Of a stretch of 36,167 bases of DNA, positions 24,060 to 28,445 are shown piece after piece; the stretch's first letter is position 1, and each line of letters begins with the position of its first letter. Origin of the DNA: Ilumatobacteraceae bacterium. GTDB taxonomy: Bacteria > Actinomycetota > Acidimicrobiia > Acidimicrobiales > Ilumatobacteraceae. The notes beneath the pieces were generated by a model. That model was not told the DNA's origin, did not search any database, and saw only the letters and a program-made list of their open reading frames with translations. Both the position numbers and the translations under genes were made by a program. The DNA is taken from contig JAFMJR010000010.1 in the NCBI GenBank assembly GCA_017853385.1, forward strand, positions 1-36,167, given 5' to 3'.

Positions 24060-24584
24060 CTAAGCGCCAGTTAATGCTCGCCACGACATTGGCGAACTCG
24101 CGGTGACCTGTTCGAGAGAAAGCTGATATGTGGTCTCGGGAACGAGTCCGGTGATTTCTCGTACTTCGTAATAGGAATGAGCAGCATCGCCAACGCCAGC
24201 AAACAATTCTTTGCGACGCACAAGTAAATCGGCTGGCACATCATCGGTTAGCCAACCCCAAATGGTGAGCGCAAACGTGAGATCGTGCATCACTGGTGCG
24301 CGGCCATACATGGACGCACGGCGCAACGCAATGCCAATTGAACCACGGATCGCATCGTCAACCGACTCGCCAGATTGAACCTTGATCTTCGGTCGCGCAA
24401 CTCGCGCAAGCGTGAGAATGTACCCCTGATCTGGACCTTGAAAGCCAAGACTCGCACCACGTGGTTGCTTACCGTCTATTTCACCTGGGCGACCTGGTGT
24501 CCACGGTGCAGGAACGTGTTGAGGAGATTCGTATGCGCGAGCAGTATCTGTCGCGTTTACTGGAGCAAATTTTGGAGCAGCCAT
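24060..24584 (-). CDS. conserved hypothetical protein
   Basis: Intact ORF between MOSC and cimA in the same orientation; no family recognised. Confidence 0.6.
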   Translation of the reverse strand: MAAPKFAPVNATDTARAYESPQHVPAPWTPGRPGEIDGKQPRGASLGFQGPDQGYILTLARVARPKIKVQSGESVDDAIRGSIGIALRRASMYGRAPVMHDLTFALTIWGWLTDDVPADLLVRRKELFAGVGDAAHSYYEVREITGLVPETTYQLSLEQVTASSPMSWRALTGA

Positions 24585-24596
24585 ACCCCTGCGAGC

Positions 24597-26171
24597 CTAC
24601 TTGGAATGCAGTAGTCCGTAGATGAGCGACTCTTCGAGTGCTCGCCACGAAGCCTCAATAATGTTTGATGAAACACCGATGGTGGTCCAATTTCGCTCAC
24701 CATCTGAAGCATCCAATAGAACGCGCGTTACTGCACCTGTCGCCGAACCCGAATCCAAGATGCGAACTTTGTAGTCGGTGAGATGCACACGCGACAACTG
24801 CGGAAATTGATTCAACAATGCAGAGCGCAGCGCAGTGTCAATGGCATTAACCGGACCATTTCCTTCCGCCGTGCACACTTCGCGATGTTCACCCACCCAT
24901 ACCTTCACAGTGGCTTCGGTAGTAAACGATCCACCTGGAGATTCATCGGTGATCACTCGCATGGATTCGACATTGAAAAACTTTTGTTCCCAACCAGTCG
25001 CACGACGCATCAGCAATTCAAGTGATGCATCGGCAGCCTCAAAGTGGTAGCCCTCGTGCTCCAAACGCTTCAAGTCATCAATCACTTGATTCACTGCTGG
25101 ACCATCCATTTTCAAACCGAGTTCTTCAGCCTTCATTGCAATAGTTGCGCGACCAGCCATTTCACTCACCAAAAAGCGAGTGCCGTTTCCAACAAGCTCT
25201 GGTGCAATGTGTTCATATGCATCTTTTGCGCGCGAGATTGCTGAAACGTGTAAGCCAGCTTTATGTGCAAATGCCGATGAACCTACATATGGAGCCTGAG
25301 GATTCAATGGGCGATTCAACACTTCGGCAACGTAGTTACTCACGGTGGTGAGTCGCTCAAGTCGACCCTCTGGCAAGCAATCAAAGCCCATCTTCAATTG
25401 CAAGTTTGGAATGACTGTGGTGAGATTCGTATTTCCTGTTCGCTCGCCCAACCCATTCAGCGTTCCTTGCACGTGACGAGCACCGCTTTGCACTGCGGCA
25501 AGCGAGTTTGCAACCGCGCAACCGGTGTCATCATGACAGTGAATGCCGATTGTTGCATCATCACCAATGTGCTTCTTTACTTCACCAACAATGTGCAGCA
25601 CATCTGATGGCAGAGATCCGCCGTTGGTATCGCACAACACCAAGTGAGTTGCTCCCCCGATAATTGCCGCTTCAAGAACGCGTAGTGAAAACTCTGGGTT
25701 TGACTTGAAGCCATCAAAGAAATGTTCCATGTCTACAAGTACTCGTCGGTTATTTCCGGTGAGGTACTTCACTGAATCAGACACCATGGCGATGCCTTCA
25801 TCGAGAGTGGTTTGCAATGCATGTTCCACGTGATAGTCCCATGCCTTGGCAACGATGCACACTGCAGAGGTTTGAGCTTCAATCAAATTTCGCAATGTTG
25901 CGTCATCGTCAACCTTGCCGAGAGGACGTCGTGTTGAACCAAAGGCAACAAGTTCAGAGGTCGTGAGGGTCAATTCTTTTTTTGCGCGTGCAAAGAATTC
26001 AATGTCTTTGGGATTGGCACCAGGCCATCCACCTTCAATGAAGTGCACTCCCAAAAAGTCCAATTGCTCAGCAATGCGAAGTTTGTCTTCAACACTTGCG
26101 GAAACACCTTCCACCTGCATGCCGTCACGCAATGTGGTGTCGAAAACTTCTACGAGTTGTTTCTGTGTCAT
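24597..26171 (-). CDS. cimA: (R)-citramalate synthase
   Basis: VEVFDTTLRDGMQVEGVSASVEDKLRIAEQLDFLGVHFIEGGWPGANPKD, GIHCHDDTGCAVANSLAAVQSGARHVQGTLNGLGERTGNTNLTTVIPNL, SAFAHKAGLHVSAI. The VEGGWPG-type motif and C-terminal regulatory domain favour CimA over LeuA. Confidence 0.92.
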   Translation of the reverse strand: MTQKQLVEVFDTTLRDGMQVEGVSASVEDKLRIAEQLDFLGVHFIEGGWPGANPKDIEFFARAKKELTLTTSELVAFGSTRRPLGKVDDDATLRNLIEAQTSAVCIVAKAWDYHVEHALQTTLDEGIAMVSDSVKYLTGNNRRVLVDMEHFFDGFKSNPEFSLRVLEAAIIGGATHLVLCDTNGGSLPSDVLHIVGEVKKHIGDDATIGIHCHDDTGCAVANSLAAVQSGARHVQGTLNGLGERTGNTNLTTVIPNLQLKMGFDCLPEGRLERLTTVSNYVAEVLNRPLNPQAPYVGSSAFAHKAGLHVSAISRAKDAYEHIAPELVGNGTRFLVSEMAGRATIAMKAEELGLKMDGPAVNQVIDDLKRLEHEGYHFEAADASLELLMRRATGWEQKFFNVESMRVITDESPGGSFTTEATVKVWVGEHREVCTAEGNGPVNAIDTALRSALLNQFPQLSRVHLTDYKVRILDSGSATGAVTRVLLDASDGERNWTTIGVSSNIIEASWRALEESLIYGLLHSK

Positions 26172-26206
26172 CTGATGCTCTTCTCTTCTGTCGAATTTTG
26201 GGGATT

Positions 26207-26232
26207 AAAAAAGCCGCCCGTGTGGGCGGCTT
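26207..26232 (-). terminator. intrinsic terminator / attenuator hairpin upstream of cimA
   Basis: Minus: AAGCCGCCC-ACAC-GGGCGGCTT followed by T-tract (GGCTTTTTTAATC). Confidence 0.85.
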
Positions 26233-26233
26233 G

Positions 26234-26257
26234 GGCGTACGTCGGGTGACGCACGCC
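26234..26257 (-). promoter_or_regulatory. 10-bp hairpin between the leader ORF and the terminator (candidate attenuator hairpin)
   Basis: Minus: GGCGTGCGTC-ACCC-GACGTACGCC. All 10 positions pair, one as G-U, which would be A.C in the plus-strand transcript. Confidence 0.7.
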
Positions 26258-26310
26258 TATCGAATAATGATGATCGCAATGCTGGACGTGTTGGCTCCGA
26301 AATGATTCAC
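26257..26310 (-). CDS. putative isoleucine-rich leader peptide of cimA (MNHFGANTSSIAIIIIR)
   Basis: GTG AAT CAT TTC GGA GCC AAC ACG TCC AGC ATT GCG ATC ATC ATT ATT CGA TAG. Five Ile in the seven codons before stop. Start codon uncertain because the GGAG is only 2 nt from GTG. Confidence 0.65.
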   Translation of the reverse strand: MNHFGANTSSIAIIIIR

Positions 26311-26475
26311 GGCTCCAGTCTGACGCCTGAAATGGCGTTCACCAACCCGCCAGAAGCCAACCTGTGAGGATGCCTGTGGATAAAGCCCTGCGGACGATAC
26401 TCCGCTTGTGGAAACGGCTGTGGATGAACTTGGGGGAAACCCCTTCCAAGTCACCTCTGTGTAATACGAGCCCTG

Positions 26476-27393
26476 TTATTTCGCGTATTCAAGCCAGCTT
26501 GAATAGCGCGGGTCTTGTCCACGCACTGCCTTGGCATAAGTCGCAGCCACAGCACGGGTAATCGGGCCAGGGCATGGAACTGGACGGTCATCCACCGAAT
26601 TCACCGAGCCAACTTCTGCTGCAGTTCCGCACGCAAAAATTTCTTCGGCAATGTACAAGTCGCTGCGAGCAATGTTGTCTACCCGTACTTCGTGACCAAG
26701 ATCGCGAGCAATTCGAGTGACGCTGTTTTGCGTGATTCCTTCGAGGGCTCCAGCAGACGTAGGAGGAGTCAAAATGATTCCATTTCGAACCACAAACAGG
26801 TTTTCTCCCGTGCATTCTGCAACCAAACCATTTGGTGCAAGCATGATGGCTTCGTCATAGCCAGCCTTCAATGCTTCAACTTTGGCAAGTGATGAGTTCA
26901 CGTAGTTGCCAACTGTCTTTGCAGCAGGAGGCATGGTGTTGTGATCATGGCGAGTCCATGAAGAAATCTTCATGCGCACACCTTTTTCTACAGCGTCATC
27001 GCCTAAGTAAGCGCCCCATGGCCAACACGCGATTGCAACATCGGTTTTGCATGGCGTGGTGTTCAGACCCATTTCGCCGTATCCGTAATACGCGATTGGG
27101 CGAATGTAACAAGCAGGCAATCCAGTTGATGCAACCGTGTCTTTCACACCTTGAACAAGTTCTTCAAGGGTGTACGGCATTGGCATTTGCAAAATCTTTG
27201 CCGAGTTAATGAAGCGTTGCATGTGCTCAGTAAGGCGGAAAATTGCTGGGCCCTTGTCGGTTTCGTATGCGCGAATACCTTCAAATACTCCAGTGCCATA
27301 GTGCAATGTGTGTGTGAGCACATGTACTTGTGCCTTGTCCCAATCAACAAGCTTGCCGTTCATCCAAATCTTTGGTGTCGTCGTAATTGGCAT
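26476..27393 (-). CDS. ilvE: branched-chain amino acid aminotransferase
   Basis: KIWMNGKLVDWDKAQVHVLTHTLHYGTGVFEGIRAYET, NSSLAKVEALKAGYDEAIML, ECTGENLFVVRNGII. Confidence 0.95.
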   Translation of the reverse strand: MPITTTPKIWMNGKLVDWDKAQVHVLTHTLHYGTGVFEGIRAYETDKGPAIFRLTEHMQRFINSAKILQMPMPYTLEELVQGVKDTVASTGLPACYIRPIAYYGYGEMGLNTTPCKTDVAIACWPWGAYLGDDAVEKGVRMKISSWTRHDHNTMPPAAKTVGNYVNSSLAKVEALKAGYDEAIMLAPNGLVAECTGENLFVVRNGIILTPPTSAGALEGITQNSVTRIARDLGHEVRVDNIARSDLYIAEEIFACGTAAEVGSVNSVDDRPVPCPGPITRAVAATYAKAVRGQDPRYSSWLEYAK

Positions 27394-27431: not shown

Positions 27432-28445
27432 TTACTTGCCGGCAACTCTGGCTGCAATTTCGTCGCCAACTTGCGATGTTGTTCCAGCGCTTGGATTTAC
27501 ACAGGCTGAGCGTAATTTCGCCGCACCTGCAGTTTCGCCAAGGAATTCCAGCATGTGTGCTGCAGACAAGATTGCCGCTACTGGGTTTGCTTTACCGGTG
27601 CCCACGATGTCTGGCGCTGAGCCATGCACTGGTTCAAACATCGAAGGGCCAGTTCGTTTTGGATTGAGGTTTGCAGAAGAAGCAACACCAATTCCACCAC
27701 TCACTGCACCACCAAGGTCGGTCAAAATATCGCCAAACAAGTTGTCGGTAACAATTACGTCGTAACGCTGTGGGTCTTGCACAAAGTAAATGCATGCTGC
27801 ATCAACGTGGTTGTACGCGGTGCCAACTTGTGGAAACTCTTGTGCAACTTTGTTGAAGGTGCGCTGCCACAAGTCTCCTGCAAACGTCAGCACGTTTGTT
27901 TTGTGTACAAGTGTGAGATGCTTGCGCTCGCGTTGCGCTGCTAATTCAAATGCATATCGAACGCAACGCTCCACTCCGTGCGCCGTGTTCACACTTCCCT
28001 GCGTTGCAACTTCAAATGGAGTTCCCTTGCGCAATACTCCACCCTCGCCAACATATGGTCCTTCAGTGTTTTCGCGAATCACCACAAAATCGTGCGGCTG
28101 AGTGTGGCCTGGTGCAACTCCAGCAAACGGGCGTTGATTGATGTACAGGTCAAGTTCAAACCGCATCTTCAACAACAGTCCGCGTTCAATCACTCCAGGT
28201 GGTACCTCTGGTGTACCAACTGCGCCCAACAAGATCGCATCAAATTTGCGAAGCTCACTAAGTGTTGCATCTGACAACACTTCGCCGTCACGCAAGTAAC
28301 GAGCACCGCCAAGGTCAAAACTTGTGGTTTCCACATTGATTCCTGCGGCCTGCACAACCTTGAGTGCTTCAGTGGTGACTTCTGGTCCGATTCCGTCGCC
28401 GCCGATTACTGCAACGCGATGTGCTGATGTTGTTTTTGCCGACAT
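27432..28445 (-). CDS. leuB: 3-isopropylmalate dehydrogenase
   Basis: [69 protein letters not shown]. Confidence 0.94.

Follow-up and report, generated by a model that had tools for sequence, protein, structure and literature searches.

A predicted isoleucine-responsive leader with two adjacent hairpins upstream of the citramalate synthase gene cimA in Ilumatobacteraceae

Organization of the cimA Upstream Region

The window analysed here is the whole stretch of 36,167 nucleotides read from contig JAFMJR010000010.1 of an Ilumatobacteraceae bacterium, a freshwater actinobacterium. On its minus strand, the genes leuB and ilvE lie upstream of cimA, and the segment between ilvE and cimA contains a short open reading frame (ORF), two hairpins, called A and B, and a run of T. 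The features are the following, in the direction of transcription.

27432–28445, minus strand: leuB, upstream gene (PRK03437 family, 493 bits)
26476–27393, minus strand: ilvE, branched-chain aminotransferase, upstream gene (PRK06606, 416 bits)
26340–26345, minus strand: predicted −35 element TTGGTG of the leader promoter (promoter scan; TTGGCG and TTGACG in relatives at a conserved position, 17-nt spacing)
26317–26322, minus strand: predicted −10 element CAGACT, 6 nt 5' of the leader start codon
26257–26310, minus strand: leader peptide ORF of 17 codons, GTG ... VNHFGANTSSIAIIIIR TAG (58 cimA leaders have an Ile run in frame, ATT and ATC replacing each other)
26278–26280, minus strand: additional earlier Ile codon ATT, read from the leader ORF sequence
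26263–26274, minus strand: putative regulatory codons ATC ATC ATT ATT, four Ile (at least three Ile in 58 distinct Ilumatobacteraceae cimA leaders)
26260–26262, minus strand: lone codon CGA, not for Ile, separating the Ile run from the stop (always present, codon identity free)
26257–26259, minus strand: stop codon TAG; hairpin A begins with its G
26234–26257, minus strand: hairpin A, 10 bp, GGCGTGCGTC-ACCC-GACGTACGCC (folding; class-wide, 9 of the 10 pairs changed on both sides)
26211–26232, minus strand: hairpin B, stem-loop of the intrinsic terminator, 9 bp, AAGCCGCCC-ACAC-GGGCGGCTT, 1 nt past A (folding, covariation)
26207–26212, minus strand: T-run (T6) of terminator B, which overlaps the stem end with its first bases (sequence)
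26178–26189, minus strand: purine-rich AGAAGAGAAGAG, candidate Shine-Dalgarno region for cimA, left free by both hairpins (sequence)
24597–26171, minus strand: cimA, (R)-citramalate synthase, 524 aa, the regulated gene (TIGR00977 equivalog, 700 bits for a cut-off of 450)

A sequence-only reading of this DNA had described a short minus-strand ORF with Ile codons before cimA, and this ORF was recovered base for base at the positions given. The 10-bp hairpin that it saw beginning at the stop codon is present at 26257–26234, the first G being that of TAG, and one of its pairs is G-U in the minus-strand RNA, as had been said. The intrinsic terminator reported right after hairpin A corresponds to 26232–26211, with the T6 extending to 26207. 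The distance to cimA, estimated at about 35 nt, is exactly 35 nt from the T-run of terminator B to the start at 26171. The 107-nt leader RNA folded at −41.6 kcal/mol compared to −25.0 ± 2.9 in shuffled sequences (z = −5.7), and the structure is therefore not explained by chance. The sequence ATYATYATYATYNNNTAG occurred a single time in the 1.5-Mb genome, at the cimA leader. Immediately 3' of cimA, a 174-aa protein (24060–24584, minus strand) was without NCBIfam match.

The position of the predicted promoter relative to the ORF was conserved. The predicted −10 element was followed at 4–10 nt by the first in-frame start codon in 140 of 173 leaders, compared to 17.6 (maximum 26) in shuffles. The leader mRNA is therefore probably leaderless, and its 5' end would coincide, or nearly so, with the leader start codon. 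A leaderless leader-peptide mRNA has been reported in Streptomyces lividans (PMC8079986). Up to the terminator, the predicted transcript measures only about 100 nt, and hairpins A and B consequently represent nearly all of its structure.

Conservation and Covariation of the cimA Leaders

The close relatives of the window genome are labelled Acidimicrobiaceae or Ilumatobacteraceae MAGs. A set of 107 related loci yielded 58 different sequences upstream of cimA with a common layout, made of at least three Ile codons, one further codon, TAG, hairpin A beginning with the G of this stop, a spacer of 0–6 nt and terminator B. Desertimonas flava, a culturable actinobacterium, has a cimA leader (L092). 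Exactly one codon separated the last Ile codon from the stop in all 58, with 16 different codons at this place. The stop was TAG in 58/58 of these Ilumatobacteraceae cimA leaders and in 154 of the 173 leaders overall. The two Ile codons ATT (114 occurrences) and ATC (111 occurrences) interchanged, as expected if the amino acid itself matters.

Both hairpins showed compensatory variation. In an alignment of 28 sequences, 41 cells were changed on both sides of the hairpin stems compared to 12 ± 2.5 in shuffles. With 63 class-wide sequences, 166 two-sided changes were counted compared to 40 ± 7 in shuffles; they affected 16 of the 20 stem pairs, a value reached by none of 500 shuffles. Conserved Ile runs and hairpins with covariation in relatives were what the sequence-only reading had proposed to look for, and the 58 leaders provided them.

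The 58 leaders had been gathered by demanding at least three Ile codons. When R2, a covariance model devoid of the regulatory codons, was applied to the remaining loci, only three extra cimA-proximal leaders appeared (ITII, VILI and IMLI), which indicates that the selection bias is small. No leader of the A/B kind was found before cimA in the genera g4 and g9 (L013–L021 and L035–L046); the leader element is lost or moved in this lineage. The cimA gene was within a few bases of ilvE in most of the g4/g9 loci.

Related Leaders before Other Branched-Chain Amino Acid Genes

The same element was present before other genes. The model R1 had matches in 178 of 395 Acidimicrobiia genomes. Inspection of 59 matches placed 39 before leuB, 9 before ilvB, 9 before cimA and 2 without assigned gene, and the leaders preceding leuB belonged to an operon leuB-ilvE-cimA in 35 of 41 cases. 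R2 had matches in 177 of 397 Actinomycetota genomes. Its strong matches outside Acidimicrobiia, among those checked, were mostly located before ilvB. Matches with weak E-values in other classes were in part ordinary hairpins (for example L262, L271 and L273) and were discarded. Inside Ilumatobacteraceae, 28 of 30 ilvB loci and 30 of 30 leuA loci carried a leader ahead of the gene. The window's own genome possesses one such element on contig C120 (L205:1501–1573), where the leader MQSQVLDLLLT-TAA, a hairpin and a terminator directly precede leuA; this is the leucine version of the cimA leader module. The ilvB gene was not found in the incomplete assembly of this genome. A search for a Trp-codon version of the module (pattern TGGTGGTGG...TAG) gave, in most genomes, fewer matches than the reversed-pattern control. 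The cimA leader is likely to belong to a wider family of leaders for branched-chain amino acid genes in Actinomycetota.

The codons differed with the downstream gene. Their identity was scored over the four codons preceding the last codon of the leader. The cimA leaders showed 97% Ile and the leuA leaders 84% Leu. The ilvB leaders showed 69% Val and 20% Leu, and the class-wide leaders of leuB-ilvE-cimA 59% Ile and 29% Val. CimA is committed to isoleucine and LeuA to leucine, while IlvB serves all three branched-chain amino acids. The finder used for ilvB and leuA leaders demanded only at least two of I, L or V, a loose rule which could not by itself produce the difference in codons between the two genes. 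These gene-matched codons are the strongest evidence that the leaders would be read by translating ribosomes for their amino acid. They strongly support amino-acid-specific, ribosome-mediated control by these leaders.

Ribosome Position and the Two Hairpins

The effect of the ribosome was modelled by imposing its footprint as an unpaired constraint during folding. Under this constraint the mean pairing probability of hairpin A was 0.99 when the first of the four codons occupied the A site, 0.28 when the last codon did so, and 0.00 with the ribosome at the stop. Hairpin B stayed at 0.92–0.95 at every ribosome position. In the predicted folds, only hairpin A is switched by the position of the ribosome. 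The terminator forms in both ribosome states, and thermodynamic folding alone therefore predicts no switch. The sequence-only reading had proposed such a folding, with and without a masking ribosome.

The geometry was constant. In the 173 leaders, without exception, the 5' arm of A ended 9–13 nt from the stop codon, counted from its first base, and A was separated from B by 0–6 nt. Considering the footprint of a ribosome, one terminating at the stop codon would reach the end of the 5' arm of A. At the same loci and with the same strict rule, a stable hairpin abutted 80 of 123 leader terminators and 8 of 67 terminators located elsewhere, 7 of these 8 being leader copies missed by the filter. 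The sequence of A was similar across gene groups and that of B differed by gene group. According to a review, the RNA exit channel, when widened by NusA, takes one RNA duplex plus a single-stranded segment (PMC12288461).

We propose the following model. When Ile-tRNA is ample, the ribosome would proceed to the UAG codon and its leading edge would melt the 5' arm of A. With A melted, B would close and transcription would end before cimA. When isoleucine is scarce, the ribosome would wait on the first Ile codons and A would form once transcribed. The formed hairpin would touch the base of B and keep it from closing inside the exit channel, so that RNA polymerase would read through into cimA. Hairpin A would then be both the sensor of ribosome position and an antiterminator acting by crowding B out of the channel. 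This last step is deduced from the position of the arm end, the A–B geometry, the rarity of such abutment elsewhere and the capacity of the exit channel; taken by itself, we consider the case for it evenly balanced. Readthrough under starvation has the right sign for a biosynthetic gene. The model predicts that the default without translation would be ON, unlike in the E. coli trp operon.

The different parts of this interpretation are not equally firm. Translation-dependent, Ile-specific control of cimA is highly probable. That the element is an Ile-responsive, ribosome-mediated transcription attenuator controlling cimA is a prediction which we regard as likely. It is more tentatively, and with slightly less than even confidence, that we suggest a general Actinomycetota attenuator design, in which a hairpin anchored at the stop codon senses the ribosome, abuts the terminator and blocks it sterically without competing for bases. 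A single interchangeable module (regulatory codons, one codon, stop-anchored hairpin, 0–6 nt, terminator) would then carry Ile, Leu or Val codons for cimA, leuA or ilvB.

Alternative Readings of the Leader

Hairpin A might instead cause a pause that keeps RNA polymerase in step with the ribosome, B being regulated through coupling or kinetics and not by exclusion. Hairpin-stabilised pauses are a general way to synchronise the polymerase with regulatory events (PMC12288461), and A is placed where an arriving ribosome would melt it. Pausing alone, however, gives no reason for the failure of B under starvation, nor for the fixed spacing of 0–6 nt between A and B, and we consider this explanation unlikely.

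It is possible, although improbable, that the element is a classical attenuator whose antiterminator escaped detection; the leader or hairpin A would then pair with either arm of B, and terminator and antiterminator would compete for bases. The order of codons, hairpin and terminator is that of the trp, ilv and leu leaders, and in the ilvB-II leader of Corynebacterium the P1 loop region was proposed to pair with the 3' shoulder of the terminator (PMC10272879). Here, however, duplex energies calculated with swapped partners showed that the leader and A have no preference for their own B arms over the B arms from another species, and that this pairing is weaker than the one between the two arms of B (B5:B3). 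In addition, the predicted pairing of B is about 0.95 with the ribosome in either state, the sequence of B varies by gene group while that of A stays similar, and the whole transcript offers only about 100 nt. No strand shared between an antiterminator and the terminator, the mark of the trp type, was found. Two candidate pairings were examined and rejected. The first, picked by eye, opposed GGCGGGTTGG near 26350 to the 5' arm of B; it lies upstream of the predicted transcript start and was not kept in relatives. In the second, GCCGCC codons present in some leaders would pair with the 3' arm of B; a stalled ribosome would cover them, and they were not conserved.

The sequence-only reading had called the arrangement classical amino-acid attenuation. 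Its core, an Ile-responsive, ribosome-mediated leader of cimA, is supported by conservation, covariation and gene-matched codons. The term classical is not supported, as A and B have no base in common, B is predicted to fold in both ribosome states and a search for a conserved alternative pairing found none.

A switch binding a metabolite or a protein at A and B, with incidental Ile codons, seems very unlikely. The recurrent sequence GCGCAC...GTGCGC of hairpin A and the CATA loop motif recurring in leuA and ilvB leaders could be read in its favour, but the leader matched no Rfam family, the stop codon is the most conserved unpaired feature, the codons track the gene product and synonymous ATT/ATC changes are tolerated. 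Finally, an unregulated arrangement with a chance ORF between an ilvE terminator and a cimA promoter, suggested by the location of B, which would also stop ilvE transcripts, is hardly credible given the predicted leader promoter upstream of B, the family-wide conservation of Ile run, lone codon, TAG and hairpin, and the differences in codons between genes.

Comparison with Known Leaders

Taken broadly, the leader has the parts of a ribosome-mediated attenuator, namely a predicted short ORF containing consecutive codons for the pathway product, an intrinsic terminator (hairpin and T6, conserved class-wide) between this ORF and the gene, and a structure, hairpin A, dependent in silico on the position of the ribosome. 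In the trp and ilv/leu attenuators of E. coli, stalling at the regulatory codons decides the fate of an intrinsic terminator before the biosynthetic operon, and the order of codons, terminator and operon is the same here. The difference is that in E. coli the antiterminator 2:3 and the terminator 3:4 share segment 3, whereas in the cimA leader the hairpins are adjacent and share nothing. The cimA leader would work like an attenuator but lacks the overlap that defines the classical one.

A comparison with the cis-regulatory families of Rfam 15, at gathering and relaxed thresholds, gave no match for the leader, the best being Phe_leader with 31 bits for a threshold of 55. The ilvB and leuB leaders tested likewise matched no Rfam family. 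No T-box was recognized by Rfam, and the leader RNA is too short for one. In the open-licence papers searched, no leader was found for cimA, leuB or any Acidimicrobiia, and in particular no Ile leader for cimA, in agreement with the sequence-only reading, which knew of none.

Corynebacterium, Mycobacterium and Streptomyces have known leaders of ilv type, whose mechanism is unsettled (PMC1262725, PMC10272879). The actinobacterial ilvB leaders resemble the present one by a peptide rich in branched-chain residues, a hairpin, an intrinsic terminator and a biosynthetic gene (PMC10272879, PMC1262725, PMC8079986), but here the gene is cimA and nearly all the codons are for Ile. The uORF of ilvB-II extends across P1, and its proposed antiterminator overlaps P2 (PMC10272879). 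Compared by description, the cimA leader is not of this ilvB-upstream, P1-spanning kind, since its hairpin A begins precisely at the stop codon, rather than inside the uORF, and lies directly against B. The LEU element of other Actinobacteria similarly places a Leu-codon leader before leuA, with a pseudoknot, a base stem joining the Leu codons to the leuA Shine-Dalgarno box, and no typical terminator (PMC1262725); the Ilumatobacteraceae leuA leaders differ by their hairpin A and intrinsic terminator. In Streptomyces coelicolor, mutations of the ilvB leader codons were without effect and those of the leuA leader were inconsistent with classical attenuation (PMC1262725), results which count against the attenuator reading of the cimA leader.

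Leader-peptide control of citramalate synthase has apparently not been argued for before, and the present analysis brings cimA, leuA, ilvB and leuB under one leader module with product-matched codons. The lack of an overlapping antiterminator raises a testable question, the effect of adjacent RNA hairpins on intrinsic termination, and may help to explain the resistance of the actinobacterial ilvB leaders to the textbook model (PMC1262725).

The hairpins also varied in detail between gene groups. The sequence CATA occupied the loop of hairpin A in 21 of 30 leuA leaders (L306–L335) and 11 of 28 ilvB leaders of the family (L276–L305), and almost never in cimA or leuB leaders. In the leuB leaders (L144–L202), terminator B was mostly CCGTCCAC/GTGGGCGG, with a conserved U-G wobble at a place where C-G would be stronger.
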